The notes under the pieces were generated by a model, which ran no database searches, was not told the origin of the DNA, and saw only the letters and a list, made by a program, of their open reading frames with translations. From Leifsonia sp. Root4 (GTDB lineage: Bacteria > Actinomycetota > Actinomycetes > Actinomycetales > Microbacteriaceae), in the NCBI RefSeq assembly GCF_001425085.1, contig NZ_LMDN01000003.1, forward strand, positions 126,763 through 190,762: a DNA stretch of 64,000 nucleotides. Reading direction: 5' to 3'. Made by a program: the position numbers and the translations under genes. Positions 14,890-42,812 of the stretch are shown one piece after another. Each line of letters begins with the position of its first letter. The stretch's first letter is position 1.

Positions 14890-14952
14890 TGGCTCGCCTT
14901 TCTGTCGGGTGCTGTCGGGGAGGAATGCGGTGACCGTTCGGGTCACAACACA

Positions 14953-14980
14953 CTCTCGGCAGCCTTCTCAATCATGTTAG
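14953..14980 (-). promoter_or_regulatory. Sigma-28 (FliA)-type promoter of flgN-flgK-flgL-fliW
   Basis: On the minus strand TAAC (rc of 14976-14979, preceded by C) is followed after exactly 15 bases by GCCGAGAG (rc of 14953-14960). The sigma-28 consensus is TAAA-N15-GCCGATAA. Four other promoters in the window share this spacing and core. Confidence 0.7.
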
Positions 14981-15195
14981 TGAGACGGCCTTGAATCGGG
15001 CTGAAAGGGCCCCTGCCCCGAACGAGGGTCGGCATTGTGGAGGACACTCGCACTGGGGGAGTCCGGTCGCGCGTGTCGGAGGGGCGCCCCGGATACGGTT
15101 GAGAAAACCCGAGGAACTGACCCGCCTACCCGAGTCAATCGTCCAAAAAAGGTGCGTGACCCTGCACGCTGCCACAACTGCAGGAATTGATATTT

Positions 15196-16008
15196 GTGAA
15201 TCGTGCGGAACGCAATGAACTCGTTGTCGCCAACCTCCCTCTCGTTGGCTACCTCGTCGCCGACGTCTGTGCCAGGGCAAGCCACCTCTCACGGGACGAT
15301 CTTGCCTCGGCCGGTGCCTTGGCGCTGGTGAGCTGCGCGGAGAACTTTGATGAGAGCCGCGGCATCCCGTTCGGTGCATATGCGCGAACGCGAATCCTCG
15401 GCGCATTCGCCGACGAGATGCGTTCCAGCGATTGGGCGACCCGGTCAGCGCGCAAGCGCATCACCGAGGCCGTCTCGGTCCGAGAAACGCTGACCGCCGG
15501 CCTCGGGCGCACCCCCAGCGTCGACGAGCTCGCCGCGGCGATGGGCGTCGACCGCGAGACCGCGACCGCAGCGCTCACGGATGCCGCACGCACCGTGAGC
15601 ACCATCGACGAGACCACCGCCGAGTACCTCGTCTCGGAGATGACCTCGCCGGAGGAATCGCTGCTCATCGACGAGCGGCAGCGCATCGTCCGCTCCGCCG
15701 TCGACGCCCTGCCGGAACGCATGGCCATGATCGTCCGCGCCATCTATTTCGACGACCGTTCCGTCAAGGAGGTCGCCGAAGAGCTCGGCATCACGCACTC
15801 GGCCGTCTCGCAGCAGCGTTCTGAGGCGATCCGGTTGATCCGCGACGGACTGGGCGCCCACTACTCCGATGAGCCCAACGCGGCAGCGGTGCCGGACGTG
15901 CGCCTGAGCGCGGCGCGTCGCACCGCCTACCTCTCGCGCTTCGAGGACCACCTCGCAGCCGGCACACGCGGCCGGCCGGCCGCCGCATTCATCAGCCAGG
16001 TCGGCTGA
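15196..16008 (+). CDS. fliA: Flagellar-type RNA polymerase sigma factor (FliA/WhiG family)
   Basis: A 270-residue sigma factor. Region 2 includes LASAGALALVSCAENFDESRG with FGAYARTRILGAFADEMR; region 3 has TAGLGRTPSVDELAAAMG; region 4 has a helix-turn-helix, SVKEVAEELGITHSAVSQQR. This is the FliA/WhiG/SigD layout. A tail of about 35 residues beyond region 4 is unusual. It should direct polymerase to the TWAC-N15-GCCGA promoters of this locus. GTG 15196 has AGGA ten bases upstream; TTG 15187 is an alternative. No anti-sigma FlgM gene is seen nearby. The 200 bases upstream, apart from the divergent flgN promoter, show no clear signal. Confidence 0.93.
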   Translation: MNRAERNELVVANLPLVGYLVADVCARASHLSRDDLASAGALALVSCAENFDESRGIPFGAYARTRILGAFADEMRSSDWATRSARKRITEAVSVRETLTAGLGRTPSVDELAAAMGVDRETATAALTDAARTVSTIDETTAEYLVSEMTSPEESLLIDERQRIVRSAVDALPERMAMIVRAIYFDDRSVKEVAEELGITHSAVSQQRSEAIRLIRDGLGAHYSDEPNAAAVPDVRLSAARRTAYLSRFEDHLAAGTRGRPAAAFISQVG

Positions 16009-16044
16009 CGCTGCCGCCGCAGAAAAACTTCCCAGACGAATCCC

Positions 16045-16071
16045 TAACGGATGCCGCCGAGCCGCCGATTG
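16045..16071 (+). promoter_or_regulatory. Sigma-28-type promoter of the flagellin gene
   Basis: TAAC (16045-16048), 15 bases, then GCCGATTG (16064-16071). Transcription should start near 16078, giving a 5' leader of about 54 bases that begins with a hairpin. Confidence 0.75.
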
Positions 16072-16079
16072 TTGTGAGT

Positions 16080-16124
16080 ACTGGCCCACGGATGGGCCGG
16101 TGTACACAACCCACTCACGGAGGA
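16080..16124 (+). promoter_or_regulatory. Probable CsrA-binding leader of flagellin mRNA
   Basis: At the predicted 5' end, 9-bp arms (16080-16088 and 16093-16101, one G-U pair) present the tetraloop CGGA. A second motif, ACGGAGGA (16117-16124), contains the Shine-Dalgarno sequence, seven bases before the ATG. One GGA in a hairpin loop plus one over the ribosome site is the arrangement by which CsrA represses hag in Bacillus subtilis. csrA (42564) and fliW (11719) are in the same locus. Binding is inferred from sequence and structure. Confidence 0.65.
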
Positions 16125-16131
16125 ATTCATC

Positions 16132-16968
16132 ATGGGTATGCAGATCAACAACAACATCGCGGCGAACAACTCGTACCGCAACCTGTCCGTCACGCAGAAC
16201 GACCTGTCGAAGTCGCTGGAGAAGCTCTCCAGCGGTCTGCGTATCAACCGTGCGGCCGACGACGCTGCCGGTCTGGCGATCTCCGAGGGTCTGCGTTCGC
16301 AGGTCGGTGGCCTCACGGTCGCCGCTCGCAACGCGCAGGACGGCATCAGCGTCATCCAGACCGCTGAAGGCGCCCTGACCGAGGTGCACTCCATCCTGCA
16401 GCGTGTTCGTGACCTCGCCGTTCAGTCGGGTAACGACTCGAACAACGCCGACTCTCGTGCAGCCATCGCCAAGGAGGTCACCGCGCTCGGTGAAGAGCTC
16501 ACCCGCATCGGTGCGTCGACCAACTTCAACGGCATCAAGCTGCTCGACGGCAGCAACGCGACCCTGACCTTCCAGGTCGGTGCCGGTGGCGTTGCAGCGC
16601 AGGACCAGATCGCGATCAACCTGAACAACGTCTCGACGATCGGTGGCGTTGTCACCGGTCTTGCAACTGCTGGCTTCGCCGACAAGGCCGCTGCTCTGAC
16701 GACGATCGTCGCGCTCGACGCGCAGATCACGGCCGTATCGACCGCTCGTGCCGACCTCGGTGCGCAGCAGAACCGCTTCGAGTCGACCATCAAGAGCCTC
16801 AACGTGTCGAAGGAGAACCTCTCGGCTGCCGAGTCGCGCATCCGCGACACCGACATGGCTTCCGAGATGGTCAAGTACACCCGCTCGAACGTGCTCTCGC
16901 AGGCCGGTACCGCCATGCTCGCGCAGGCGAACCAGTCCAACCAGGGCGTTCTGCAGCTCCTCCGCTAG
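16132..16968 (+). CDS. fliC: Flagellin
   Basis: The filament subunit, 278 residues. The N-terminal D0/D1 helices (QINNNIAANNSYRNLSVTQN, then SSGLRINRAADDAAGLAISE) and the C-terminal helices (AESRIRDTDMASEMVKYTR, ending in NQGVLQLLR) are complete. The middle is short, so variable D2/D3 domains are essentially lacking, as in Bacillus Hag. It has a sigma-28-type promoter, a strong GGAGGA ribosome site, and a probable CsrA-binding leader. Codon use is less extreme at third positions than in neighbours, fitting high expression. A weak hairpin (about 16975-16992) after the stop may allow partial read-through into fliD. Confidence 0.97.
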   Translation: MGMQINNNIAANNSYRNLSVTQNDLSKSLEKLSSGLRINRAADDAAGLAISEGLRSQVGGLTVAARNAQDGISVIQTAEGALTEVHSILQRVRDLAVQSGNDSNNADSRAAIAKEVTALGEELTRIGASTNFNGIKLLDGSNATLTFQVGAGGVAAQDQIAINLNNVSTIGGVVTGLATAGFADKAAALTTIVALDAQITAVSTARADLGAQQNRFESTIKSLNVSKENLSAAESRIRDTDMASEMVKYTRSNVLSQAGTAMLAQANQSNQGVLQLLR

Positions 16969-17111
16969 CCGGCCGCGGCCACAAGCCGCGCCGATTGGCA
17001 ACAGAGCAACATGACGATGGCCGGTGCCGGGCGCGACAATCCTGTCGTGATCCCGTCACCGGCCCTCGTGCACTCCGTACACGAAGACGATCGAAACACA
17101 GGGCAGCACTC

Positions 17112-18488
17112 ATGGGAATCTCGCTTGACGGCCTGGTCAGTGGCCTCGACACCGCGAAGTTGATCGCATCGCTGATGGCGGTCGAGGCAATTCCGCAGAA
17201 CATTCTGCAGGGCAAGTACACCTCGACGCAGAACTACCTGAAGACGCTGCAGACCCTGAACTCCTCGGTGGCGGCGCTGGCCGAACTCGGCAAGAACGGC
17301 ATGAAGCCAGACGCGCTCGCCCTCTTCAGCGCCATCAGCTCCGACAAATCGGCCACCGTCACCGTCGGCAAGGGTGCCGGCGCGACGCAGCTCGACATCA
17401 CCGTCGACACCCTCGCCCAGTCCCAACAGCAGGTGACAGCACCCATGACGGCGTGGCCGAGCGACCCGCCGGTGCTCACCGTCAAGGCCGCCGATGGCAC
17501 CCTGAAAGAAATCACCGCAGACTCTAGTTCCATCAGCGACGTCGTGCGGGCGATCAACGCCGCGGATGCCGGCGTGCAGGCGACCCGTGTCGCGGCCGGT
17601 GTCGACCCCGGCACCGGCGACACCCTGTACCGCCTGCAGCTCACTGCGACAGAGACAGGTGCGGCCGGCGCGTTCACGATGTACGAGGGCAGCGTGGCCC
17701 AGGTCACGGCGGGCACCGCCCCGCAGTTGAGCGCCACAACCATCCGTACTGCGACAGACGCCGAAGTCACCCTCTGGAAGGGGACGCCCGCCGAGCAGAA
17801 GATCACCTCCAGCAGCAACACCTTCGCCGATCTGGTTCCCGGGGTCTCGGTGACGGTCAGTGCGACAAGCGCAACGCCGATCACCATCACCGTCGCCCGC
17901 GACGATGCGGCCATCGGCAAGGTCGCCGAAACGCTGATCGGCAAACTCAACGAGGTCTTCGAATTCATTGACTCCAAGCGCGCGCTCACGACCACGACCG
18001 GTGCCGATGGCAAACCGGTCGTGTCAGGCGGCGTCTTCAGCTCCGACAGCACCGTGCGCGAGGTCGAGCAGAGGCTGCTCGACGCGGCATCCGCCCCGAT
18101 CGACGGCCGCTCGCCGTCGGAGTTCGGCATCAGCATCACTAAAGAAGGGCGGATGACGTTCGACGCGGAGAAGTTCGCCAAGTCGCTCGCCGAGGATCCC
18201 GGAGCAACGCAGAAGGCCCTCACAACCATCACGACCAGGCTTGAAGAGGCGGCTCGGCTCGCCTCGGACAAGTACGACGGCGTGATCACGTCGAAGATCA
18301 CCGGGCAGACCTCGCTGTCAAAGGACATCACCGAACAGATCGCCAACTGGGATCGCCGACTCGCCTCCCGCGAGGAGACGCTCAAGCGCACGTACTCCGC
18401 GCTCGAGGTGCAGCTGAGCAAGCTGAACGCGCAGTCCTCGTGGATCGGATCGCAGTTGTCCGGCCTGAACGCAGGGAACTCGCAGTGA
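17112..18488 (+). CDS. fliD: Flagellar filament cap protein FliD
   Basis: A 458-residue cap protein (HAP2) that folds flagellin at the filament tip. The N-terminus MGISLDGLVSGLDTAKLIAS matches FliD, followed by a helical stretch and beta-rich central domains. The C-terminal FliD_C region has GISITKEGRMTFDAEKFAKS and a final coiled-coil helix (RLASREETLKRTYSALE). The ATG at 17112 begins exactly at the conserved motif. The stop overlaps the fliS GTG, so the two are translationally coupled. No separate sigma-28-type promoter is seen in the 140-base gap after flagellin. Confidence 0.95.
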   Translation: MGISLDGLVSGLDTAKLIASLMAVEAIPQNILQGKYTSTQNYLKTLQTLNSSVAALAELGKNGMKPDALALFSAISSDKSATVTVGKGAGATQLDITVDTLAQSQQQVTAPMTAWPSDPPVLTVKAADGTLKEITADSSSISDVVRAINAADAGVQATRVAAGVDPGTGDTLYRLQLTATETGAAGAFTMYEGSVAQVTAGTAPQLSATTIRTATDAEVTLWKGTPAEQKITSSSNTFADLVPGVSVTVSATSATPITITVARDDAAIGKVAETLIGKLNEVFEFIDSKRALTTTTGADGKPVVSGGVFSSDSTVREVEQRLLDAASAPIDGRSPSEFGISITKEGRMTFDAEKFAKSLAEDPGATQKALTTITTRLEEAARLASDKYDGVITSKITGQTSLSKDITEQIANWDRRLASREETLKRTYSALEVQLSKLNAQSSWIGSQLSGLNAGNSQ

Positions 18489-19015
18489 AACTGATCGGCA
18501 TCACCCCAGACGCCACAGACACCCCAGGCACCGCGGCAAGCGCAGAGGTGCAGCCTGCGGCGGCGCCCGTCGCGTTCGCGCCCCAGCGCCCGACCGTGCC
18601 GGCCGCCGTCGATCGTGCCGCCCAACTCAACCGCGACGCCGTGCTCTCTGCGACCCCCGTGCGCCTGCTGACGATGCTCTACGACCGCCTGCTCCTCGAC
18701 CTCGGCCGTGCAGAGCAGGCGCAGCTCGCCGAGAACTGGCCGGCCGCGAGCGATCAGCTTCAGCACGCGCAGGCGATCCTTACCGAGCTCAGCGGATCTC
18801 TCCGGCTCGACGTGTGGGACGGAGCAGACGGACTCCTCGCTCTCTACACCTACGTGACGAACGCCCTCGTGCTTGCCAACATCCACCGCGACATCGCCCG
18901 CACGCGAGAGGCCATCACCCTGCTTGAGCCGCTGCGAGCCGCCTGGCATGACGCCGCGGCGATCCTGCCGGCACAGCAGTCCGCGCCGAGCACGGGAGCG
19001 TTGGGCATTGCCTGA
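18485..19015 (+). CDS. fliS: Flagellin export chaperone FliS
   Basis: About 176 residues. After a proline/alanine-rich N-terminal extension of about 50 residues, the FliS four-helix bundle is clear: NRDAVLSATPVRLLTMLYDR, then a helix with QLQHAQAILTELSGSLRLDVWDG and a last segment YTYVTNALVLANIHRD. FliS keeps flagellin unpolymerised before export. Canonical FliS is about 130 residues, so the N-terminal extension is unusual. GTG 18485 overlaps the fliD stop (GTGA), which decided the start. Confidence 0.93.
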   Translation: MKLIGITPDATDTPGTAASAEVQPAAAPVAFAPQRPTVPAAVDRAAQLNRDAVLSATPVRLLTMLYDRLLLDLGRAEQAQLAENWPAASDQLQHAQAILTELSGSLRLDVWDGADGLLALYTYVTNALVLANIHRDIARTREAITLLEPLRAAWHDAAAILPAQQSAPSTGALGIA

Positions 19016-19367
19016 TCAACAGAGCAACCCGGCAGAAATGCCCCCGCGCCAGGCCAGCGAGGCAGAACGGCTCTGGCTCGGAGTGCTCACCGAGCTGGAG
19101 AGCGCACTCACCCTCGGGGTGAACTCGGCTGAGGACGCAGCGGGCGACGCTTATGCCGGAAGCGGCATGTGGCACGCTCCCTCGCAGCTCCCCGCACTGC
19201 CCGATTCCCTGCGCGAGCGCGCGAACGCGCTGCACGAGCGCCAGCTCGAACGCGAGCGCGAACTGCGCAGCGAACGCACCCAGGTGGGCAGGCACCTCGA
19301 GGCGCTGCGCGTAGTCCCGCGGCCACGGTCGGCTGCGGCATCCGTGTACCTCGACGTCTCCGGCTAG
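19008..19367 (+). CDS. Small helical protein in the fliT position
   Basis: About 119 residues, directly after fliS with an eight-base overlap (TTG start); an ATG at 19038 would give 109. The sequence is mostly charged helix: SEAERLWLGVLTELESALTL near the N-terminus and a strongly charged coiled coil (RANALHERQLERERELRSER) later. FliT, the export chaperone for FliD, normally follows fliS and has similar size and helical character, so this may be its functional counterpart. Direct sequence similarity is too weak to name it. Confidence 0.7.
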   Translation: MPDQQSNPAEMPPRQASEAERLWLGVLTELESALTLGVNSAEDAAGDAYAGSGMWHAPSQLPALPDSLRERANALHERQLERERELRSERTQVGRHLEALRVVPRPRSAAASVYLDVSG

Positions 19368-19407
19368 AGCCGACAGGGCCGCGCGCACGAAAACTGCGCG
19401 CACGCAC

Positions 19408-19434
19408 TAACGGATCGCAGGCATCGGCCGAGAG
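19408..19434 (+). promoter_or_regulatory. Sigma-28-type promoter of the flgB operon
   Basis: TAAC (19408-19411), 15 bases, GCCGAGAG (19427-19434). It precedes flgB by about 80 bases and is expected to drive the twelve-gene rod, basal-body and hook operon through flgE. Confidence 0.7.
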
Positions 19435-19516
19435 TGGGTAGTGAGCACGGATCGCTCACCTTCTTCGGCCACGGATCGGCCACCTGTCAGCAGCTTTCGC
19501 CGTCGTAAGGACGAAT

Positions 19517-19858
19517 GTGTTCGATTCCGTGAGCCTCTCGGCACTCTCCAGTGCTCTGGACGGCCTGGCCATGCGCCAGCGCTCCATCGCCGACAACATC
19601 GCCAACGTGAACACACCCGGCTACCACGCCAAGCGGGTCGCGTTCGAGGGAGCGCTTGCCGCATCGATCGCGGGCGGCGACGGGCACACGGATGCGACGG
19701 TGGAGCGTTCGCTCGAACCGACGCGTCTGAACGGCAACAACGTCAACCTCGACACCGAGACGCTCTCCAACGTCGACACGGTGCTGCGCTTCCAGTTCGC
19801 CTCGCGCGCCATCGAGGGCCAGTTCACGAGCGTTCGCAGCGCCATGAGAAGCAATTGA
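19517..19858 (+). CDS. flgB: Flagellar rod protein FlgB
   Basis: A 113-residue proximal rod subunit. The N-terminal segment SLSALSSALDGLAMRQRSIA followed by DNIANVNTPGYHAKRVAFE is the rod/hook family signature, and the C-terminal helix ends FQFASRAIEGQFTSVRSAM as in FlgB. It is first in the flgB-flgC-fliE order shared by most flagellated bacteria. An Asn-rich central loop carries the NVNLDTE segment. Confidence 0.95.
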   Translation: MFDSVSLSALSSALDGLAMRQRSIADNIANVNTPGYHAKRVAFEGALAASIAGGDGHTDATVERSLEPTRLNGNNVNLDTETLSNVDTVLRFQFASRAIEGQFTSVRSAMRSN

Positions 19859-19872
19859 CGAGGGAATGACCC

Positions 19873-20262
19873 ATGACTTTTGACGCAATCGGAATCGCCG
19901 GATCGGCGATGACCGTTCACCGCAAGTGGCTCGACGCCATCTCGGACAACATCGCCAACATCAACACCGTGACCTCGAGCGACGGAGCAGCGTTCCAGGA
20001 ACGCTTCATCCTCGCCCAGGCGGGCGAAGACGGCGGAGTCTTCGTCGCCGGCACGGTGCAGGGTGATGCAGAGGGCCGGATGGTCCACGAGCCGGAACAC
20101 CCCCTCGCAGACGCCGATGGCTACGTGCGGTACCCCGACATCGATCTGGGAGCCCAGATGAGCAGCCTGATCATGGCGCAGCGCGGCTACCAGGCCAATG
20201 CCGCCGTCGTCGACCGGGCCAAGGAAAGCTACCAGGCCGCACTCCAGATCGGTCGTGGCTGA
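19873..20262 (+). CDS. flgC: Flagellar rod protein FlgC
   Basis: A 129-residue rod subunit. It starts with MTFDAIGIAGSAMTVHRKWL and has DNIANINTVTSSDGAAFQER; the C-terminal helix (MSSLIMAQRGYQANAAVVDR) matches FlgC. The ATG follows flgB by 14 bases with GAGGGAA upstream. Its stop overlaps the fliE start (TGATG), showing co-translation. Confidence 0.95.
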   Translation: MTFDAIGIAGSAMTVHRKWLDAISDNIANINTVTSSDGAAFQERFILAQAGEDGGVFVAGTVQGDAEGRMVHEPEHPLADADGYVRYPDIDLGAQMSSLIMAQRGYQANAAVVDRAKESYQAALQIGRG

Positions 20263-20588
20263 TGCCGATCGGAGCGATCGACGCCATTTCCGCGGGTGCA
20301 GGCGCCGTGCAGGGCGTTCGCCCGAGCGGCTACATCGACGGCGCAGCCGCACCGGCGGGCACAGGGGGAGCCGGGTTCGCCTCGGCCCTCAGCGGCGCGG
20401 TCGAGAACATGCAGCAGCTGCAGTCGACATCGAACGAGCTCGCCCTGCGCGCCGTCACGGGTGACCTCACCGACATCCACGCCGCGACGATCGCGTCGAC
20501 GAAGGCGCAGGTCACGGTCGAGCTCGTCGCCGCCATCCGCAACAAGGGCGTCGATGCGTTCAACGAGATCATGAGGATGCAGGCCTGA
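20262..20588 (+). CDS. fliE: Flagellar hook-basal body protein FliE
   Basis: A 108-residue adaptor linking the MS ring (FliF) to the rod. After a low-complexity N-terminus come the FliE helices: GFASALSGAVENMQQLQST, the conserved segment LRAVTGDLTDIHAATIAST, and the close VELVAAIRNKGVDAFNEIMR. It overlaps both flgC and fliF by single-base TGATG junctions. Confidence 0.95.
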   Translation: MPIGAIDAISAGAGAVQGVRPSGYIDGAAAPAGTGGAGFASALSGAVENMQQLQSTSNELALRAVTGDLTDIHAATIASTKAQVTVELVAAIRNKGVDAFNEIMRMQA

Positions 20589-22174
20589 TGCCGCGCCAGG
20601 TCACCTCCTTCTTCCAACGCTTCACGGCGGGCGTCCGCGAGTTCACCGTCGCGCAGCGCACCCTCGCGCTGCTCGCCGTCGCCGTTCTCGTGCTCGGCGT
20701 CGCCGGACTCGGCATCTGGCTCAGCCGGCCCTCGTATGCGCCACTGTTCACCGGGCTGCAGGCGGCGGACGCGAACTCGATCGTCGAGCAGCTCCAGGCC
20801 GACGGCGTTCCCTATGAGCTCAGCGACGGCGGCGGCACCATCATGGTCCCGCAGGCCGATGTCTACAACGAGCGCCTCAAGGCGGCGGCCGCCGGCCTGC
20901 CCAGTTCGAGCAGCGGCGGCTACTCGCTGCTCGACGACATGGGTGTCACCACCTCCGAGTTCCAGCAGTCGGTCACGTACAAGCGGGCGCTCGAGGGTGA
21001 GCTCGCCGCGACGATCTCGGCCCTCAGCGGTGTGAAGACGGCATCCGTGCGTCTCGCCATTCCGCAGGAGACCGTCTTCGCCGACGAGAAGGCCGCCCCG
21101 ACCGCGTCGGTCTTCATCGAGACCGCCAGGGGCGAGTCGCTCGATTCCGAGCAGGTGCAGGCAATCGTCCACCTGACCTCGGCCTCGATCGAGGGCATGA
21201 AGGCAACGGATGTCGCTGTCATCGACTCCTCAGGCACCGTGCTCTCCGCCGTGGGCGGCAGCCCGACGGGTGGAGCGGGCAAGCAGGCCAACGACTACGA
21301 GACCCGGGTGCGCACCGCGGTGCAGGCGATGCTCGACACCGTGGTGGGCGTCGGCAATGCGACCGTCGTCGTCGCGGCCGATGTCAGCAGCGAATCGGCC
21401 GAACGCACGGCCGAGACCTTTGTCGCCCCCGAGACGGTCACCCCGTTGAACGAGTCGCGCGAAACCGAGAGCTACACCGGGACCGGGGGAGCAGGAGCCG
21501 GAGTGCTGGGACCGGACAACATCGCCGTCCCCGGCGGTGCGGAGGGCAACGGCACGTTCAACTCGGAATCGGTGACGAGTAACAACGCCATCGACAAGGT
21601 CACGGAGACCCGCACGATCCCGGCCGGAACCCTGGCCAGGCAGTCGGTCTCCGTCGCCGTCAACGACGCCATTCCCGGCGACGTGAACATGGGCAATCTG
21701 CGCGCACTCGTGTCGGCGGCAGCCGGCATCGACGTCGACCGCGGCGATACCGTCACCGTCGAGTACATGAGCTTCGACAGCAGCAGCGCCACAGCGGCCG
21801 AGACGGCGCTGGCCGATGCCAAGGCGGCAGCGGCATCCGAGCAACTGACCGAGATCGTGCGGATGGGCATCATCGCCCTGGCCGTGTTGATCGCGCTGGT
21901 GTTCATCACCGTCATGATCAGCCGTTCCCGCCGGGCCAGCCGTGAAGCCGTCGACGAGGAGGAACTCCTCGCCGCCCGCGCCGCGCTGGAGGCCGCGCAG
22001 GAGCAGCTCGTGCTGCCCGCTCCGACCGTGCCGCTGCAACTCGAGACCGAGGTCCTGCCGATCGCGCCCGATTCCGACCGCACGCGTTCGGAGATCGAGA
22101 TGCTCGCAGCGCGTGACCCGCAGAAGACCGCCGAGTACCTCCGGGCACTCATGGATGACAGGCAGCCGGTATGA
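20588..22174 (+). CDS. fliF: Flagellar MS-ring protein FliF
   Basis: A 528-residue membrane ring protein. A first membrane helix (TLALLAVAVLVLGVAGLGIW) is followed by YscJ/FliF periplasmic domains with PSYAPLFTGLQAADANSIVE and ELAATISALSGVKTASVRLA. A second membrane helix (MGIIALAVLIALVFITVMI) comes near 420-440, then a cytoplasmic tail that binds FliG (IEMLAARDPQKTAEYLRALM). All family regions are present. The stop overlaps the fliG ATG by four bases. Confidence 0.97.
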   Translation: MPRQVTSFFQRFTAGVREFTVAQRTLALLAVAVLVLGVAGLGIWLSRPSYAPLFTGLQAADANSIVEQLQADGVPYELSDGGGTIMVPQADVYNERLKAAAAGLPSSSSGGYSLLDDMGVTTSEFQQSVTYKRALEGELAATISALSGVKTASVRLAIPQETVFADEKAAPTASVFIETARGESLDSEQVQAIVHLTSASIEGMKATDVAVIDSSGTVLSAVGGSPTGGAGKQANDYETRVRTAVQAMLDTVVGVGNATVVVAADVSSESAERTAETFVAPETVTPLNESRETESYTGTGGAGAGVLGPDNIAVPGGAEGNGTFNSESVTSNNAIDKVTETRTIPAGTLARQSVSVAVNDAIPGDVNMGNLRALVSAAAGIDVDRGDTVTVEYMSFDSSSATAAETALADAKAAAASEQLTEIVRMGIIALAVLIALVFITVMISRSRRASREAVDEEELLAARAALEAAQEQLVLPAPTVPLQLETEVLPIAPDSDRTRSEIEMLAARDPQKTAEYLRALMDDRQPV

Positions 22175-27702: not shown

Positions 27703-27713
27703 AAGAGGACCCC

Positions 27714-28181
27714 GTGCCGATTGACCCCGTCACCACCGTGAACACCGGCGGCATCTATGCCACCGATCCTGTTCGCAAGCCCAAGCAGGACATGGACGGC
27801 GACGTCTTCATGTCGCTGCTGATCACGCAGCTGCAGAACCAGGATCCGAGCTCGCCGATGGACACCTCGCAGATGATCCAGCAGACGACGCAGCTGGCGA
27901 TGATGGAGAAGATGAACGAGCTTGCCGTCACGAGCGGCGAGAACTTCTCGCTGCAGATGCGAGTGGCCGCCGCGTCGCTCGTCGGCCAGCAGGTGACGTA
28001 TGTGAACGCGGCGGGGGAGACCATCACCGGCATCGCCGACTCCGTCTCCTATGCGGGAGCGGTTCCCACCATCTCCATCGGCGGCAAGAACATCCCGCTC
28101 GACGTGATCGCCAGTGTCACCGCCCCTCCGGCACCCGACACTCCCAAGCCCGAAACCCCCGGCGCAGCCGCCGCCGTCTGA
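27714..28181 (+). CDS. flgD: Flagellar hook assembly scaffold FlgD
   Basis: A 155-residue hook cap. The family core is DVFMSLLITQLQNQDPSSPM, then DTSQMIQQTTQLAMMEKMNE. A short beta domain follows and the protein ends in a Pro/Ala tail. It is shorter than enterobacterial FlgD and similar in size to the Bacillus form. GTG 27714 has AGAAGAGGA just upstream, 12 bases after the fliK stop. Confidence 0.94.
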   Translation: MPIDPVTTVNTGGIYATDPVRKPKQDMDGDVFMSLLITQLQNQDPSSPMDTSQMIQQTTQLAMMEKMNELAVTSGENFSLQMRVAAASLVGQQVTYVNAAGETITGIADSVSYAGAVPTISIGGKNIPLDVIASVTAPPAPDTPKPETPGAAAAV

Positions 28182-28211
28182 TCGCCGACCCCTCCACCGA
28201 AAGGCTCACCA

Positions 28212-29381
28212 ATGCTCCGCTCGCTCTACTCCGGAATCTCCGGTCTCCGTTCGCACCAGACCATGCTCGACGTCACGGGCAACAACATCGCCAACGTCAA
28301 CACGACCGCGTTCAAGGGATCTGCCGTGCAGTTCCAGGACACGCTCTCCCAGCTCACCCAGGGCGCCGGCGGCCCGCAGGCGCAGACCGGTGGAACCAAC
28401 CCGGCCCAGGTCGGCCTCGGCGTGCAGGTCGCCGGCATCTCGACCAACTTCACGCAGGGATCGGCGCAGGCCACGGGGCGTGCAACCGACATGATGATCG
28501 CCGGTGACGGCTTCTTCGTCACAAGCATCGGCGGCGAGACCCGCTACACCCGGGCGGGCGCATTCGACCTCGACGCCGACGGCCGCCTCACCGCGCCCGA
28601 CGGCTCCCTCGTGCAGGGTTGGAACGCCGTCAACGGCCAGATTCCGACCGGTGGCGGCATCGGCAACATCCAGCTCCCGCTCAAGGGCGTGTCGCCGGCA
28701 TCCGCAACGACCGCGGCAACCGTCGGGGGCAACCTGCCATCGGATGCCGCCAACGGCACCGTTCTCGTGCGCGACGTCCCGGTCTACGGAGCGGACGGCA
28801 AGCCGGGCACGCTGACCCTCACCTTCACCAAGGCGGGCAATGACTGGACCGTCTCCGGCACCGACGGCGCCACCACGCAGACGGGGACACTCACCTTCAC
28901 GAACGGCGTGCAGACCGCCGGCACGCTTCCCGCCATCGGCGGCATCACCGTCGACCTCTCCGGCGTCTCGGGCTTCGCCACGCTCAGCACCGTCGCGATC
29001 GAAGGCCAGAACGGTCGCCAGGCCGGAACCCTCGAGTCCTTCACACTCTCCAAGGACGGAACGCTCATCGGCCTATTCAGCAACGGCCAGAAGCAGCCGA
29101 TCGCCCGTGTGGCGCTGGCCACCTTCGCCAACCCCGGCGGTCTCGAGAAGACCGGCTCCTCCGGCTACCGCGCCACCGTCAACTCGGGCGGCGCGACGTA
29201 CGGCGTACCGGGCGGCGACGGCCTCGGCGTGCTGGCCGGCGGCCAGCTCGAGATGTCGAACGTCGACCTCTCGCAGGAGTTCACGAACCTGATCGTCGCC
29301 CAGCGCGGCTTCCAGGCGAACGCCCGCATCATCACCACCTCCGACGAGGTGCTGCAGGAACTCACCAACCTCAAGCGCTAA
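28212..29381 (+). CDS. flgE: Flagellar hook protein FlgE
   Basis: The 389-residue hook subunit, last gene of the operon. The N-terminal rod/hook signature is MLRSLYSGISGLRSHQTMLD with TGNNIANVNTTAFKGSAVQF; a D1-type segment IAGDGFFVTSIGGETRYTRA follows, and the C-terminal helix is QEFTNLIVAQRGFQANARII. FlgE and the distal-rod proteins FlgF/FlgG share these features. Length and position after flgD favour FlgE. A strong terminator follows 25 bases later. Confidence 0.93.
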   Translation: MLRSLYSGISGLRSHQTMLDVTGNNIANVNTTAFKGSAVQFQDTLSQLTQGAGGPQAQTGGTNPAQVGLGVQVAGISTNFTQGSAQATGRATDMMIAGDGFFVTSIGGETRYTRAGAFDLDADGRLTAPDGSLVQGWNAVNGQIPTGGGIGNIQLPLKGVSPASATTAATVGGNLPSDAANGTVLVRDVPVYGADGKPGTLTLTFTKAGNDWTVSGTDGATTQTGTLTFTNGVQTAGTLPAIGGITVDLSGVSGFATLSTVAIEGQNGRQAGTLESFTLSKDGTLIGLFSNGQKQPIARVALATFANPGGLEKTGSSGYRATVNSGGATYGVPGGDGLGVLAGGQLEMSNVDLSQEFTNLIVAQRGFQANARIITTSDEVLQELTNLKR

Positions 29382-29405
29382 CGCCGCGGGAGGCCAACGT
29401 GCCGA

Positions 29406-29438
29406 CGGGAGGCCAGAATCGGTGATTCTGGCCTCCCG
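29406..29438 (+). terminator. Terminator after flgE
   Basis: Perfect 15-bp arms (CGGGAGGCCAGAATC and its complement) around a GGT loop, followed by CCCTGCTTAATA. It lies between convergent flgE and the DUF1254 gene and can serve both strands. Confidence 0.85.
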
Positions 29439-29468
29439 CCCTGCTTAATACCTCCGCGCTCCGGCGCT

Positions 29469-30899
29469 CTACTCGACGGGCTCGAACTCGTTCAGGCGCC
29501 AGCTCTGGTCGAACCACGGCTCAAGCGGCCCATAGGCCCGGAACAACGGGAACCACGACTTGCCCGGTACCGTCTCGATCCAGTTCGATTCCTTGCCCAC
29601 CGGTGCGCTCGGACCGAAGTAGAGATCGTACGAGCCATCGGCATTCGCCTGCAGGGTTCCCGTGTTGCTGGCAAGAGCCGGGTACGGCGTGGAGGGGATG
29701 ACGAGCAGCGAACGGGTCTGGGTGTCGTAGATGTCGATCGCCCAGAAGTTCTTCGCGGGCGCATCGGCGTCCATGCGCAGCCGGTAGCTGCGGCCGCCGT
29801 CGAGGAGATCTCCATTCGCATCGTGCACCGTGTAGGCGTAGGCGGATCCAGCACCGACCTGGGCGTGGGCCATCGCCGGGGTGATCACGGTGGCGAGGTA
29901 GTGGAACTGCGTGCGGGCGTCGAGCAGACGTGCACCCTCCCTGAGGAACTCGTAGCTGCCGCCGACGAAACCATTGCGCCATGAGCCGTAGAGCACGGCA
30001 TCGGGGTCGCGCGGCTGATAGGCGATCACCCTCGCGAGACCGGCCGCGATCGGGGCAGCCTTCTCGAGGATCGCCCTGAGCCTGGCATCCGGCGCGAACG
30101 GCGCACCATGGGCGATGCCGATGGAGGCGAGTTGCCCGGCCCGCTCAGCATCGAGGGCCTCGATGGGCTCCTCCTGCACGAGCTGCGCGACCTCCTCATA
30201 GAAGCTGAAGTCGTTGGCGTGGATCGTGTTGAAGCTCAGCGCTGCCAGATTGATGAACTCGTTCGGTTCCGGATTCTCAGCCTCGGTGAGCGGGTAGATC
30301 CGGGTCCGTTTGATCGCCGGGACTCCACCGAGTGCGCGGAACACGGCGAAGTTCGTGAATGTCGGCGTTCGGTAGACGTGATACCCCTCTGGCACCTCAC
30401 CCTCGTAGCCCGGCGGCAGGTACAGGTACTTGCCGCCTTCCCCACGGTCGGGCCCGGCGATGCCCATGTCGGCGACGTAGCGGAACCAGAAGTCGTCGAC
30501 GACGCAGAGGGACTGTTCGGGGACCTCGACCACGGTCGGACCCCACGCCTTCAGGTCCAGCATCGTGACGCCGTAGGTGGTCTCAGTGTTCGGCGTGAGG
30601 AACAGTGCGCCCGAGTTGGCGCGCGGGTCGGTGAATCCGATCTGCCGCGGTGATGTCAGCCCGACCGAGCGGAGGCCATTGCGGAACGCCACGAGCGAAG
30701 CACCGGGCACGGCGTTCAAGAACACCTCGATGCCACGCATCAGGTCCAGCGCGTCGTAGCCGACCTCAACCGACTCCGGCAGCGGCACGCCGTCGAAGAA
30801 GGTGAGGTCACCGAACGGCGAAGTCACCGTGTCCGGTGTGCTGAGTGACGCGATTTCCCCCTCGAGTGCGCTGACACCTGCAAGATCCTGAAATGACAT
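29469..30899 (-). CDS. DUF1254/DUF1214 domain protein
   Basis: A protein of about 476 residues. The N-terminal DUF1254 region has SGALFLTPNTETTYGVTMLD and WFRYVADMGIAGPDRGEGGK with YLYLPPGYEGEVPEGYHVYR. The C-terminal DUF1214 region has YRLRMDADAPAKNFWAIDIY and WFPLFRAYGPLEPWF. The two domains commonly occur together; their biochemical function is unknown. No signal peptide is evident from this start. ATG 30899 has GGGGAG six bases upstream. The gene points against the flagellar operons on both sides and has no evident link to motility. Confidence 0.9.
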   Translation of the reverse strand: MSFQDLAGVSALEGEIASLSTPDTVTSPFGDLTFFDGVPLPESVEVGYDALDLMRGIEVFLNAVPGASLVAFRNGLRSVGLTSPRQIGFTDPRANSGALFLTPNTETTYGVTMLDLKAWGPTVVEVPEQSLCVVDDFWFRYVADMGIAGPDRGEGGKYLYLPPGYEGEVPEGYHVYRTPTFTNFAVFRALGGVPAIKRTRIYPLTEAENPEPNEFINLAALSFNTIHANDFSFYEEVAQLVQEEPIEALDAERAGQLASIGIAHGAPFAPDARLRAILEKAAPIAAGLARVIAYQPRDPDAVLYGSWRNGFVGGSYEFLREGARLLDARTQFHYLATVITPAMAHAQVGAGSAYAYTVHDANGDLLDGGRSYRLRMDADAPAKNFWAIDIYDTQTRSLLVIPSTPYPALASNTGTLQANADGSYDLYFGPSAPVGKESNWIETVPGKSWFPLFRAYGPLEPWFDQSWRLNEFEPVE

Positions 30900-31076
30900 G
30901 CTGACTCCCCATTGACGACGTCGTTTGCACTCACTCTGGCAGCGAGCCGTCTGGAGTCGCAAGAGCTGCCCCGGGATGCCGCGGAGATCATGCCATCGGC
31001 ATGATGCGCCCACTGCGGCCGCTCAGGAGTCTGGGCTCGCGGCCGAATGCCGCCGAAGGGGAAAGGTGAGAACAAC

Positions 31077-31478
31077 ATGAGTACAGTCAACGAACCAACG
31101 GGCTGGGTCGGCTGGATCGGCTTCGCCGGCATTATCCTGATCCTGAACGGCGTCTTCAGCGCGGTGCAGGGCTTCATGGCACTGCTCGGCTCGAACACGT
31201 ATTACCTCGTCAGCAGTGGAACCCTGTTCCTCTTCGACATCACCGGCTGGGGATGGTGGAACATCATCATCGGCGCGCTGCTCGTTCTCACCGGAATCGC
31301 GCTGTTCGGCGGAGCCACCTGGGCGCGGATCATCGCCGTCATCCTGGCCGCTCTGAGCGCTGTGGGGCAGATGTTGCTCCTCCCCGCACAGCCGTGGTGG
31401 GCGCTCATCGTCATCGCGATCGACATTCTCGTGATCTACGCCGTCACCGCTCACGGGCGAGAAGTCAAGGCCGCCTGA
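31077..31478 (+). CDS. Small integral membrane protein (DUF7144-like)
   Basis: About 133 residues with four predicted membrane helices separated by short loops (GWIGFAGIILILNGVFSAVQ; WGWWNIIIGALLVLTGIALF; ARIIAVILAALSAVGQMLLL; WWALIVIAIDILVIYAVTAH). The pattern GWGWW before helix two and GATWAR after it match an actinobacterial family now listed as DUF7144. Its function is unknown. ATG 31077 was chosen over an in-frame upstream start because the GGGGAAAGG ribosome site fits it. A terminator hairpin follows directly. Confidence 0.82.
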   Translation: MSTVNEPTGWVGWIGFAGIILILNGVFSAVQGFMALLGSNTYYLVSSGTLFLFDITGWGWWNIIIGALLVLTGIALFGGATWARIIAVILAALSAVGQMLLLPAQPWWALIVIAIDILVIYAVTAHGREVKAA

Positions 31479-31484
31479 CACGCA

Positions 31485-31523
31485 ACGGCCCCCTGTGCAT
31501 CGTTCGGATGCGCAGGGGGCCGT
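31485..31523 (+). terminator. Terminator after the membrane protein gene
   Basis: ACGGCCCCCTG and CAGGGGGCCGT arms enclose a further TGCATC/GATGCG stem with one G-U pair. It lies between convergent genes. Confidence 0.8.
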
Positions 31524-31531
31524 TCGTTGCC

Positions 31532-31693
31532 TCAGATGCGGCGGCGGCGGCCCGGTGTCACGGCCGCGCCAACCACGGCGGCCTTCGCGACCGGCGCCGG
31601 CCCTGGTCGAACCGCCGCGGTCACGACGGCAGCCTTGGCTACGGGTGCTCCGATGACGCCAACGCGCCCGATACGAGCTGGTCTCAGTGGCAT
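31532..31693 (-). CDS. Small protein with duplicated AKAAVV motif
   Basis: 53 residues beginning MPLRPARIGRVGVIG. An internal near-duplication, APVAKAAVVTAAVRPG followed by APVAKAAVVGAAVTPG, takes up most of the protein, and it ends in GRRRRI. The ATG has AGGAG seven bases upstream, a better site than many larger genes here, and the DUF6325 stop lies one base before it, so translation is probably real. No family is recognised; the sequence could form a short membrane-associating or nucleic-acid-binding segment. Confidence 0.6.
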   Translation of the reverse strand: MPLRPARIGRVGVIGAPVAKAAVVTAAVRPGPAPVAKAAVVGAAVTPGRRRRI

Positions 31694-31694
31694 G

Positions 31695-32153
31695 TCATTC
31701 TCCTGACTTCTCGGCAGCCGCATCGGCCTCGATGGAGGCGATGATCGACTGGATGGGGATTCGTCCGTCGGCGATCAGCTGACCGCCGGCGCGCCTGGCT
31801 GCCGCCGCGAACGGAGCGGCCCACAGGTTTTCATACACGAGCACTCCGGCGACGCTGCCCGGATCCATGGCAGCGGCGAGGTGAGCGACGTCTTCGGCGG
31901 CGAGAAGCTCGGCAAGATCGGCCTCGATGCGCAGCAGATCACCCAGGTCCCCGGCATCGGAGAGCTCCATCGCGTCGATTGCGCCCTCGTCGTCCTTGGT
32001 CAGGATGAGGATGTCGATGACGCGGATGGTGCCGGCATCGACGAGGTTCACCAGTTCAGCGACAATTTCGCCGCTGAAGTTCGCCTCGCCCTTCGGGAAC
32101 TCAACCACGAGGTAATCGACGGGGCCGAGCGCCTCGAGTTCGTACTCAGTCAT
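31695..32153 (-). CDS. DUF6325 family protein
   Basis: A 152-residue acidic protein. The opening LGPVDYLVVEFPKGEANFSG, the helix-strand unit ELVNLVDAGTIRVIDILILT, and the later MDPGSVAGVLVYENLWAAPF with RRAGGQLIADGRIP match the actinobacterial DUF6325 family. Function is unknown. ATG 32153 is preferred over an upstream in-frame start because the conserved N-terminus begins there. It forms a two-gene minus-strand unit with the small repeat protein. Confidence 0.85.
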   Translation of the reverse strand: MTEYELEALGPVDYLVVEFPKGEANFSGEIVAELVNLVDAGTIRVIDILILTKDDEGAIDAMELSDAGDLGDLLRIEADLAELLAAEDVAHLAAAMDPGSVAGVLVYENLWAAPFAAAARRAGGQLIADGRIPIQSIIASIEADAAAEKSGE

Positions 32154-32261
32154 AGTGCGGTGTCCTTTCGTCCGAACGCACGCTCCTCCTCGTCGCACGG
32201 TGGCGCATCACCCGAACAGGATGATCGGGCGGCTGCCGAGCGGCCCCGATCCGCACCCGGC

Positions 32262-32288
32262 TTACCGCGCGCCCATCACTGCCGATAG
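32262..32288 (+). promoter_or_regulatory. Sigma-28-type promoter of flbD-motA-motB
   Basis: TTAC (32262-32265), 15 bases, GCCGATAG (32281-32288). It implies a 5' leader of about 47 bases before flbD. Confidence 0.75.
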
Positions 32289-32341
32289 TGCAGCGTGACG
32301 GCCGATCGGTCGAGCACCGAGACCGGAAGCGAGGCGAGGCG

Positions 32342-32671
32342 ATGATTGTCGTAACCCGACTCAACGACAGCCAGTTCGCGATCAATCCCGATCTGATCGA
32401 GCGCATCCACGAGAGCCCCGACACCACCCTGGTGATGTTGGACGGCGCCAAGTACATCGTGACCGAGTCGCTCGCCGAGGTGATCGCCCGCATCACGGAG
32501 TACCGCGCCCGTGTGATCAACCTCGCTTCAGCGATGCAGGACGAGTCCGAATATCAGGAACACGGCCGCCCGCAGCCCGTGCTGCGCCCGGTCGCCAGAG
32601 CGCTCGAGCTCGCCCCGGACCCGGTTGACCCGCAGCCCGGCGGTCACAGCGATTCGACGAGGAGCAAGTAA
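32342..32671 (+). CDS. flbD: FlbD family flagellar protein
   Basis: 109 residues. The first 65 match the small FlbD family: MIVVTRLNDSQFAINPDLIE, then SPDTTLVMLDGAKYIVTESL. FlbD in Gram-positive bacteria normally precedes motA, as here, but its role is poorly defined. It is unrelated to the Caulobacter regulator of the same name. A Pro-rich C-terminal extension of about 40 residues is unusual. The ATG has GAGGCGAGG upstream, and the stop overlaps the motA ATG by one base. Confidence 0.9.
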   Translation: MIVVTRLNDSQFAINPDLIERIHESPDTTLVMLDGAKYIVTESLAEVIARITEYRARVINLASAMQDESEYQEHGRPQPVLRPVARALELAPDPVDPQPGGHSDSTRSK

Positions 32672-33435
32672 TGGATCCCGCCATCCTCATCGGCCTGGTG
32701 ATCGCCTTCGGCTCACTGTTCGCCATGATGACGCTCGAGGGCACCGCCGTGACGGCGATCCTCATTCCGGCGCCAATGATTCTGGTGCTCGGCGCGAGCC
32801 TCGCTGTCGGCATGGCCGGCGGCACCCTGAGCGACACGCTCTCCGCGCTCAAGGCGCTGCCCAAGGCGTTCATCGGCAAATCGGTGAAGCCCAAGGTCAC
32901 CATCGCCCGTCTCGTCACCCTGGCCGAGACGGCGCGAGCCGAAGGCCTGCTCGCCCTCGAGCAGGAGGCGGAGAACGAGAGCGACCCGTTCCTGAAGCGC
33001 GCGTTGCAGAGTGTCGCAGACGGAACCGACGGCGAAGAGCTGCGCATCCTGCTCGAAGACGAGATCCACACGGCCGATCGCACCGCGCGCAACGCCGCCC
33101 GTTACTTCACGAGCGTCGGCGGCTACGCCCCGACGATCGGCATCATCGGCACCGTCGTGTCGCTCATCCACGTCCTGGAGAAGCTCGACAGCCCGGCGAC
33201 GCTCGGCCCGATGATCGCCACGGCCTTCGTCGCCACCCTGTGGGGCCTGCTCAGCGCCAACTTCATCTTCCTCCCCATCGGCACCAGGCTGAAGCGCCTG
33301 GCCGAGCTCGAGAACGAGCGGATGACGCTGCTCATGGAGGGCGTGCTCGCCATCCACGCCGGCAGCCAGCCCCGCCTGCTCGGGGAGCGCCTGCGGGCGA
33401 TGGTCCCGCGTGCGAAGGACTCGGAAGCGGCATGA
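32671..33435 (+). CDS. motA: Flagellar motor stator protein MotA
   Basis: A 254-residue stator subunit with four membrane helices forming the ion channel with MotB. The MotA signature lies at AARYFTSVGGYAPTIGIIGT, followed by MIATAFVATLWGLLSANFIF. The cytoplasmic loop carries the charged residues that contact FliG (ALQSVADGTDGEELRILLED). Ion choice (H+ or Na+) cannot be settled from sequence. It overlaps motB by four bases. Confidence 0.96.
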   Translation: MDPAILIGLVIAFGSLFAMMTLEGTAVTAILIPAPMILVLGASLAVGMAGGTLSDTLSALKALPKAFIGKSVKPKVTIARLVTLAETARAEGLLALEQEAENESDPFLKRALQSVADGTDGEELRILLEDEIHTADRTARNAARYFTSVGGYAPTIGIIGTVVSLIHVLEKLDSPATLGPMIATAFVATLWGLLSANFIFLPIGTRLKRLAELENERMTLLMEGVLAIHAGSQPRLLGERLRAMVPRAKDSEAA

Positions 33436-34325
33436 GCCGCCCAGGCCGCCGCTCGCGCGGCACCGAACACGCCGAGGAGCACGTCGACGAACGCTGGATG
33501 GCGTCGTACATGGACATGGTCACCGTGCTGATGTGTCTCTTCATCGTGCTCTTCGCCATGTCGACCGTCGACCAGGAGAAGTTCACGGCGCTCAAGAACT
33601 CGCTGGCCACCGGCTTCGGCTCTGTCGAGGAGGGCAAGATCGACACAGCCAGCGGCGTCGTCGTGCCGCCGGACAAGGTCAGCGAGGAGGGCGACGGCTT
33701 CACCGACGCCGAGCTCGCCGTGACCGAGGTCGACACCCTGGTGAAGCTGCGCGATCAACTGCGTTCAGCGCTCGAGGCCCAGAACTTGGCCCACGCCGTC
33801 ACCTTCGTCATCGATCAGCGCGGGCTGACCATCGGCCTCATCGGCTGGGAGACCTTCTTCCAACCCAACAGCATCGATCTGCAGGGGGAGGCCCTCGCCG
33901 TCGTCGACACGATCGGGCCGATCCTCGCCGCCTCCGCACACAACGTCTCCGTCGAGGGCCACGCCGACTACCGCGGCTCGCCCAACCCGTTCCCCACCGA
34001 CTGGGAGCTCTCCGGCGGGCGCGCAACGCAGGTGCTGCGGCGCATGGTCGAGTCAGCCGGCTTCCCCAGCGGCCAGATCTCGGCGGTCGGATACGGCTCC
34101 GCCAGGCCCCAGCGCACGGGGGAGACCCCGGAGGACATGGCGTTCAACCGCCGCGTCGACATCGCGGTGCTCTCGCCTCAGCCCGAGGCCGTGCGTGAGC
34201 TCATCCCCGATGTGCTCGCCAACGGCGGGAAGGCGCCGGCGGAACCAGCAGCGCCGGCTGAGACCCCGGCCACCCCCGACAAGAAGGCCGACGCCGCGAC
34301 AAAAGAAGCCGCAGCGAAGCACTAG
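33432..34325 (+). CDS. motB: Flagellar motor stator protein MotB
   Basis: About 297 residues. A short basic N-terminus precedes the single membrane helix (ASYMDMVTVLMCLFIVLFAM) holding the ion-binding aspartate in YMD. The peptidoglycan-binding OmpA-like domain has VSVEGHADYRGSPN, WELSGGRATQVLRRMVE, and a closing PEDMAFNRRVDIAV. An Ala/Pro/Lys tail follows. ATG 33432 overlaps the motA stop. Confidence 0.95.
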   Translation: MSRPGRRSRGTEHAEEHVDERWMASYMDMVTVLMCLFIVLFAMSTVDQEKFTALKNSLATGFGSVEEGKIDTASGVVVPPDKVSEEGDGFTDAELAVTEVDTLVKLRDQLRSALEAQNLAHAVTFVIDQRGLTIGLIGWETFFQPNSIDLQGEALAVVDTIGPILAASAHNVSVEGHADYRGSPNPFPTDWELSGGRATQVLRRMVESAGFPSGQISAVGYGSARPQRTGETPEDMAFNRRVDIAVLSPQPEAVRELIPDVLANGGKAPAEPAAPAETPATPDKKADAATKEAAAKH

Positions 34326-34327
34326 AT

Positions 34328-34375
34328 CGAAAACAGGCAGTCGGCGCCGCGACCGCCCGCCCGTGCCTGTTTTCG
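34328..34375 (+). terminator. Possible terminator after motB
   Basis: Twelve-bp arms CGAAAACAGGCA and TGCCTGTTTTCG are separated by a 24-base GC-rich loop. It lies between the motB stop and the fliM promoter. Confidence 0.65.
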
Positions 34376-34415
34376 GTGCAACCGCGCCGAATTCACCTGT
34401 TTTGACCCCGGCGGC

Positions 34416-34442
34416 TTACGGCGGCGTCCACGCTGCCGATAG
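34416..34442 (+). promoter_or_regulatory. Sigma-28-type promoter of the fliM operon
   Basis: TTAC (34416-34419), 15 bases, GCCGATAG (34435-34442). The expected transcription start (about 34449) nearly coincides with the fliM GTG, implying a leaderless or nearly leaderless message. Confidence 0.75.
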
Positions 34443-42564: not shown

Positions 42565-42812
42565 TGCTTGTCTTGACGCGAAAACCAGGGGAGAAGATCC
42601 TCATCGGTGACGACATCGTCATCACCGTTCTCGACGCGCGCGGCGACAGCATCCGCATCGGGGTGGACGCCCCGCGCGGGATCAAGATCCAGCGCTCAGA
42701 GGTCGTCCAGGCCGTCGCGGATGCCAATGTCGCGGCCACGACCGCCGGTGCCGACGACGAGCAGCGACTCGTGCAGAGCCTCGGCAAGCTCACCCCGCCA
42801 CCGGCGGAATAG
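42564..42812 (+). CDS. csrA: Carbon storage regulator CsrA
   Basis: An 82-residue RNA-binding dimer that blocks translation by binding GGA motifs. The CsrA core MLVLTRKPGEKILIGDDIVI, then GDSIRIGVDAPRGIKIQRSE, is intact, including the conserved arginine in the second strand. A 20-residue tail extends past the family norm of about 60. The ATG overlaps the preceding stop, placing csrA at the end of the fliM operon under FliA control. With FliW and the flagellin leader it likely forms a feedback loop. Confidence 0.97.
   Translation: MLVLTRKPGEKILIGDDIVITVLDARGDSIRIGVDAPRGIKIQRSEVVQAVADANVAATTAGADDEQRLVQSLGKLTPPPAE

Follow-up and report, generated by a model that had tools for sequence, protein, structure and literature searches.

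The flagellar locus of Leifsonia sp. Root4, a member of the Microbacteriaceae, raises the question of which promoters drive its operons and of what could hold them in check in bacteria where no FlgM is found. The locus lies in a 64-kb stretch of contig NZ_LMDN01000003.1 (assembly GCF_001425085.1, positions 126,763 to 190,762 of the forward strand), hereafter the window, which carries five copies of the motif TWAC-N15-GCCGA that a sequence-only reading had assigned to the flagellar sigma factor sigma-28, or FliA. Comparison with related genomes makes it probable that these sites are FliA promoters forming a flagellar regulon, that FliA is not merely a late-gene factor in this organism, and that a CsrA-type layer of RNA control is laid over the fliC and flgB messages. 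The sites, and the first gene behind each, are as follows, with positions numbered along the window.

14953..14979, minus strand: predicted FliA promoter of flgN-flgK-flgL, TAAC-N15-GCCGAGAG; a site precedes flgN in 26/28 genomes
14404..14946, minus strand: flgN; the GTG at 14946 is the seventh base past the -10 octamer, with an alternative in-frame GTG near 14889
16045..16071, plus strand: predicted FliA promoter of fliC, TAAC-N15-GCCGATTG; a site precedes fliC in 29/29 genomes
16132..16968, plus strand: fliC, flagellin, assigned by family search
19408..19434, plus strand: predicted FliA promoter of the flgB operon, TAAC-N15-GCCGAGAG; a site precedes flgB in 28/29 genomes
19517..19858, plus strand: flgB, GTG start with AAGGA upstream; a longer open reading frame (ORF) begins at 19441 in another frame
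32262..32288, plus strand: predicted FliA promoter of flbD-motA-motB, TTAC-N15-GCCGATAG; a site precedes flbD in 28/29 genomes
32342..32671, plus strand: flbD, assigned by family search
34416..34442, plus strand: predicted FliA promoter of the fliM operon, TTAC-N15-GCCGATAG; a site precedes fliM in 25/29 genomes
34451..35356, plus strand: fliM, probably leaderless; the start codon is the ninth base past the octamer

The five matches in the window, in each of which TWAC and GCCGA are separated by exactly 15 bases, compare with a mean of 0.17 and a largest value of 3 in 100 dinucleotide shuffles, and the earlier claim of five sites with one constant spacer is thereby confirmed. Four of the coordinate pairs given for them also hold, while the minus-strand site ends at 14979 and not at 14980. 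Extending the pattern to TWAC-N15-GCCGAKWG and allowing one mismatch adds a single match in the window, at 2246-2272. Every site lies upstream of a flagellar gene (flgN, fliC, flgB, flbD or fliM), as had been proposed, and family searches place behind them flgN, flgK and flgL; fliC, fliD and fliS; flgB with genes for the rod, MS-ring and hook; flbD and motA; and fliM and fliN with export genes.

For the comparisons, a family sample of 199 Microbacteriaceae genomes was used, with FliA detected in 61 and not in 138, together with the surroundings of fliA (30-39 kb) in 28 relatives belonging to 27 genera which, with the genome of the window, make up a set of 29. A position matrix, with a threshold at 1% of shuffles and with training sites chosen via TWAC and GCCGA, was trained each time without the tested genome (the leaving out was by genome, and congeners were kept in training). 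It found sites at 136 of 144 positions before flgN, fliC, flgB, flbD and fliM, and at none of 310 before eleven other flagellar genes, fliA included. To avoid circular reasoning about the -35 box, 132 family sites were also picked on the -10 octamer alone. Their -35 box is TAAC in 102 cases, TTAC in 24 and TAAA in none, with TWAC at a spacing of 15 in 126 and of 16 in two; C directly precedes the box in 95% and is its fourth base in 98%, and the octamer ends in G in 99%. The consensus for the family is C-TAAC-N15-GCCGATAG, from which each window site differs at one position (TTAC at two sites, GCCGAGAG at two and GCCGATTG at one).

The sites therefore combine the GCCGATA-type -10 box and 15-base spacing of sigma-28 promoters with a -35 box other than the enterobacterial TAAA, and represent a variant form. 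The departure from the enterobacterial form had been placed mainly in the -35 box; it does lie there, and it extends to the final base of the -10 box. The consensus had also been described as local, a description that has to be given up, with TWAC general across the flagellated members of the family and present at three Occultella loci. The exact family consensus occurs in 52/61 FliA-positive and 6/138 FliA-negative genomes (counts which ignore kinship), the reversed-pattern control giving 8 and 22 matches in the two groups. In the FliA-positive genomes the exact sites number 125, and for 112 of them fliA is no more than 50 kb away. Conservation and co-occurrence with fliA thus strongly support the assignment of the sites to sigma-28.

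The 13 other exact sites in FliA-positive genomes have no fliA within 50 kb on the same contig; some are on short contigs or at contig ends, and these may belong to broken flagellar loci. Five of the 13 (L135-L139) and four of the six matches in FliA-negative genomes (L140-L143) were read, from ORF translations only and with no family search, and no flagellar gene was recognised at these nine. L135 and L136 are one and the same exact consensus site, remote from the flagellar locus and identical in two congeners (G129 and G182).

The sigma factor itself is encoded within the flagellar locus.

15199..16008, plus strand: fliA (sigma-28), taken to start at GTG, with TTG at 15187 as a possible alternative; recognition helix LGITHSAVSQQRSEAIRL

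Its product matches Pfam sigma-70 regions 2, 3 and 4 and has FliA chains among its closest solved sequences; the best NCBIfam model, FliA_WhiG, scores 136 bits, below the cut-off of 189.6. By FliA, the nearest named relative is Microterricola pindariensis, also of the Microbacteriaceae, at 81%. Outside the family, as sampled in 296 genomes of the class (flagellin match in 32), flagellin promoters are mostly c-TCA(G/A)-N15-GCCGA-like, and the change in the -35 box is accompanied by a change in the recognition helix. A helix of the form H(S/A)A(V/I)SQ goes with TAAC or TTAC at the flagellin promoter in 32/33 loci, and (E/D)SR(V/I)SQ with TCA(G/A/T) in 18/18. The H-type exception (G105) is a mis-picked site far upstream, and the matrix finds a TWAC site before every fliC. 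The helix reads ESRVSQ in chains 6pmi and 6pfv, which we take to be E. coli FliA and WhiG, respectively, and three Occultella genomes (Ruaniaceae) combine the H-type helix with TTAC. The underlying table holds 62 loci, 11 of them unclassed: no -10 box was found by rule in G066, L145, L146 and L172, and seven more are without a readable FliA. We regard the association as a strong mechanistic lead with weak statistics. A separate FliA relative, 58% identical and with the helix ITSSAVSQQR, was seen in Sinomonas gamaensis (L057), where no other flagellar gene was recognised in 20 kb using the window proteins as queries; it is possibly an orphan sigma factor.

A second set of elements, which like the absence of FlgM and the probably leaderless fliM had not been picked up by the sequence-only reading, lies just past the promoters of fliC and flgB.

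16079..16102, plus strand: fliC-leader hairpin with an A-N-GGA-N loop (predicted CsrA-type), from comparative alignment and covariation
19441..19459, plus strand: flgB-leader hairpin 1, GTGAGC-ACGGATC-GCTCAC
19467..19481, plus strand: flgB-leader hairpin 2, GGCC-ACGGATC-GGCC (GGCCACGGATCGGCC)

Flagellin leaders were collected from 62 loci, comprising 29 from the window genome and its relatives, 29 class loci (three in the family) and four named loci. An A-N-GGA-N segment lies 36-59 bases before the start in 61 of them, L171 having none. Covariation was computed for 56 of the 61 segments, leaving aside three duplicates and two (G150 and L159) with overlapping A-N-GGA-N out of register. Over a nine-pair stem, 83.9% of cells are paired and 79 cells are changed on both sides, against 27 in shuffled alignments; none of 500 shuffles, and no shift of the register, reached the covariation value of 0.456 (0.160 shuffled), and the loop A, GG and A are invariant. 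When all 58 distinct segments are taken, G150 and L159 included, each of the nine pairs still pairs above the shuffled level. When a covariance model of the hairpin was run on the window's own genome, its match to the flagellin leader had E 1.1e-4 and no other match was better than E 0.14; the flgB hairpins, the loops of which are one base longer, were not among its matches. No match was found in the window by Rfam at its thresholds.

The flgB leaders of the family typically carry a tandem pair, GAGC-ANGGATC-GCTC and GGCC-ANGGATC-GGCC. Under a strict rule (a perfect hairpin of four pairs) at least one A-N-GGA hairpin is present in 29/29 family genomes and two in 27/29. Among 18 other genes two hairpins occur in none; single ones precede flbD in 3, and fliA, fliI and flgL in 1 each, of 29, and the remaining 14 genes have none in these genomes. 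Under a looser rule, and for leaders with a recognised promoter, the counts are 18/26 for fliC, 20/20 for flgB, 11/24 for flbD and 0/5 for flgN, with an expectation of at most 1.4 each. Outside the family, 16 class loci were fetched, with a recognisable flgB in 10 and none in 6. At least one hairpin was found at nine of these 10 flgB loci and two at six, L188 showing none; a TCA(G/A)-type site was present at seven, and hairpin 2 is often closed by GCCG/CGGC with the GGA loop kept. The form of a CsrA ligand, a short hairpin with A-N-GGA-N in its loop, is thus seen for fliC, and for flgB with a loop of 7 nucleotides (nt) in the family.

The genes for CsrA and for FliW, its antagonist in other bacteria, both lie in the window.

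42564..42812, plus strand: csrA, 82 amino acids (aa)
11719..12093, minus strand: fliW

CsrA was found in 61/61 FliA-positive and 1/138 FliA-negative genomes of the family, and in 30/32 flagellin-positive genomes of the class. The Pfam model for FlgM matched in 0/199 family genomes and in 3/14 control genomes, and a diverged FlgM could be missed; the result agrees with the parts used here of an mBio survey (PMC10746217) and of a paper on Kineococcus (PMC2587704).

Comparison establishes the sites, their conservation, the covariation and the co-occurrence, and from these we infer the following course of events. FliA would transcribe all five operons, the earliest included: rod, MS-ring and hook genes (flgB), C-ring and export genes (fliM), FlbD and the stator, flagellin and the hook-junction genes. 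Flagellin that has not been exported would occupy FliW and leave CsrA free, and free CsrA would bind the A-N-GGA hairpins and, in the direction of effect that we favour, repress the flagellin and basal-body messages at the level of translation, such that cells short of export capacity would stop making more. Once flagellin is exported, FliW would be freed and would remove CsrA from the fliC and flgB messages. CsrA and FliW may in this way supply the checkpoint which FlgM provides elsewhere.

The fliM message would stand outside this CsrA control. Transcription from such promoters starts about 7 bases past the octamer, and if this rule holds here there is no room for a Shine-Dalgarno sequence on the fliM mRNA, which we infer is probably leaderless. 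Among the 18 genomes with an exact-type fliM site (the scan for it gave none in 11/29), the first in-frame start is the ninth base past the octamer in 15 and the eighth in 1, with 2 left unassigned. In the window, three of the five sites have a GTG at the seventh base past the octamer, fliM has one at the ninth and fliC at the third. Leaderless translation as a general rule was considered and rejected: flgB starts at 19517, in another frame and with its own Shine-Dalgarno sequence, and relatives do not conserve the GTG before flgN and fliC. The flbD leader (32295-32345) holds an ORF of 16 codons which begins with GTG at the seventh base past the octamer and has a stop overlapping the flbD start (ATGA); it could be a coupled leaderless mini-ORF. 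In one relative (G089, loci L086-L087), fliM-fliN lie beyond fliW on the opposite strand, away from the mot genes, and yet have their own FliA site.

For the flagellated Actinomycetes without FlgM at large, we put forward a broader proposal to which we give slightly less than an even chance. In these bacteria FliA would be close to a single-tier master regulator, with the CsrA/FliW checkpoint acting through the tandem flgB hairpins and the flagellin leader hairpin, by which flagellin in the cytoplasm would exert feedback on the synthesis of basal bodies; in the Microbacteriaceae, FliA would have switched its -35 preference from TCA(G/A) to TAAC by a few helix substitutions, rewriting all its promoters.

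A number of results weigh against the reading of a FliA regulon with a CsrA layer. Bare TWAC-N15-GCCGA is not enriched in the genome as a whole, with 22 matches in 3.87 Mb against 25 for the reversed pattern. The expectation that matches would be concentrated before motility and chemotaxis genes genome-wide has thus failed, no chemoreceptor gene having been found either; five of the 22 do fall within 20 kb. The exact family consensus is absent from 9/61 FliA-positive genomes, that of the window among them, the matrix misses sites before flgN (2), flgB (1), flbD (1) and fliM (4), and it finds none upstream of fliA in 29 genomes. The association of helix and -35 box is probably a single evolutionary event, because the H-type helix, seen in the Microbacteriaceae and one genus of Ruaniaceae, may mark a single clade or go back to a single transfer, and the eight loci left unclassed for want of a readable FliA include TAAA, TAAG and two unclear -35 boxes. 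As to the hairpins, the strict rule finds them in only 19/29 family fliC leaders, single-sequence folds of the window's own leaders do not beat those of shuffles (z -1.10 and -0.41), and a GGA hairpin is absent from its flbD leader. The minimum-energy fold of the window's flgB leader does not contain hairpin 2; the family flgB hairpins have 7-nt loops and not the ideal hexaloop, and hairpin 2 scarcely varies. CsrA was also found in 7/264 class genomes without a detected flagellin.

Some of these points bear on the simplest alternative, which we consider unlikely: the sites would be ordinary FliA promoters and nothing more, the -35 box having drifted neutrally in a genome rich in G+C and the hairpins being incidental or serving mRNA stability in general. 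The poor folding of the window's own leaders suits this view, as does the tolerance of E. coli FliA for TCAA and other -35 variants in the part of PMC4183435 used here. Drift accords poorly with the near-constant C at the fourth -35 base and before the box, and with TCA(G/A/T) at all 18 classed loci outside the clade; incidental hairpins accord poorly with an A-N-GGA loop that is invariant while its arms covary, and with a hairpin that, among 20 genes, is frequent only before fliC (19/29) and flgB (29/29).

It is less probable again that the inverted repeats past the promoters of fliC and flgB act at the level of DNA, as operators to which a repressor or activator binds, and not as RNA hairpins. 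They do lie just past the expected start site, and flgB hairpin 2 is nearly invariant in the family, as an operator might be. The fliC arms, however, change in a compensatory manner around a constant loop, as RNA would, hairpin 2 changes its arms to GCCG/CGGC outside the family, and csrA accompanies the locus. Use of the sites by another sigma factor, or by the main sigma factor with an activator such as FlbD, is very improbable. What hints at it, indirectly, is a -35 box that departs from E. coli TAAA; against it, the E. coli FliA sites listed in the same part of PMC4183435 likewise have GCCGATA at 15 bases, the sites co-occur with fliA and the -35 box tracks the FliA helix.

Beyond the window, allowing up to one mismatch to TAAC-N15-GCCGATAG gives seven matches in the genome, five of which are the window sites (control, 5). 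Among the 17 other exact matches to the short motif, 15 overlap at least one ORF of at least 100 codons, which counts as weak evidence given the high G+C content of the genome. A further FliA-type site with a good match, the sixth, lies at C1:964807-964833 on the minus strand (L134), 33 bases before the gene of a 167-aa putative membrane protein; as the first 120 residues of this protein matched 0 of 29 other genomes searched, the site is a candidate only.

Chemotaxis genes were rejected as members of the regulon, with no chemoreceptor gene in the window's own genome or in any of the 199 family genomes. A full flagellar locus (11719-41579) without a detected chemoreceptor gene suggests that motility here may run without chemotaxis; 14/69 flagellated actinobacteria lack a chemosensory system in the part of PMC10746217 used here. 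Between flgE and flbD, the window (29469-31478) also holds DUF1254/DUF1214 and DUF7144 genes, and the starts of flgE and flbD are 4.1 kb apart, where many relatives have 1.2-1.6 kb between them.

Promoters of this kind are already known. In the open-licence literature, which our search covered, we found no description of this variant consensus with its altered helix, of the association between helix and -35 box, or of tandem CsrA-type hairpins before flgB. The E. coli FliA regulon, as presented in the part of PMC4183435 used here, shares the two boxes 15 bases apart, the GCCGATA -10 box and sites before flagellin and hook-junction genes. It differs in having TAAA where TAAC or TTAC stands here, a last -10 octamer base that is often A where it is G here, and a FliA site upstream of fliA, for which the family shows 0/29. 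In the family, sites also precede the earliest structural operons, and neither FlgM nor chemoreceptors were found in the 199 genomes. The recognition helix reads THSAVSQQR here and ESRVSQLH in chain 6pmi, and the joint difference of helix and regulon-wide -35 boxes between clades constitutes a natural experiment in sigma-factor specificity. Actinoplanes missouriensis offers other actinobacterial FliA-family sigma factors, FliA1-3, which are reported to act in sporangium formation, dormancy and dehiscence.

The Hag-FliW-CsrA system of Bacillus subtilis resembles the present one in csrA and fliW and in a flagellin leader with a GGA hairpin and a further GGA in the Shine-Dalgarno sequence; the CsrA/RsmE ligand, an A-N-GGA-N hexaloop, and the action of FliW are described in the part of PMC7652899 used here. 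The system in the window differs in its additional tandem GGA hairpins in the flgB leader and in that FlgM was not found, and it leads to the prediction that CsrA acts on the first structural operon, beyond flagellin alone. The motility island of Kineococcus radiotolerans also has fliA and csrA and no flgM in the part of PMC2587704 used here; this part contains no promoter consensus and no flgB leader element, only a flagellin Shine-Dalgarno site, and its authors, on the strength of a match to the B. subtilis BS2 site, proposed that CsrA controls flagellin. They also asked, in 2008, what regulates FliA in the absence of FlgM, and the promoters and leader hairpins described here provide concrete sequences for that printed question of what checks FliA-driven expression in actinobacteria without FlgM.

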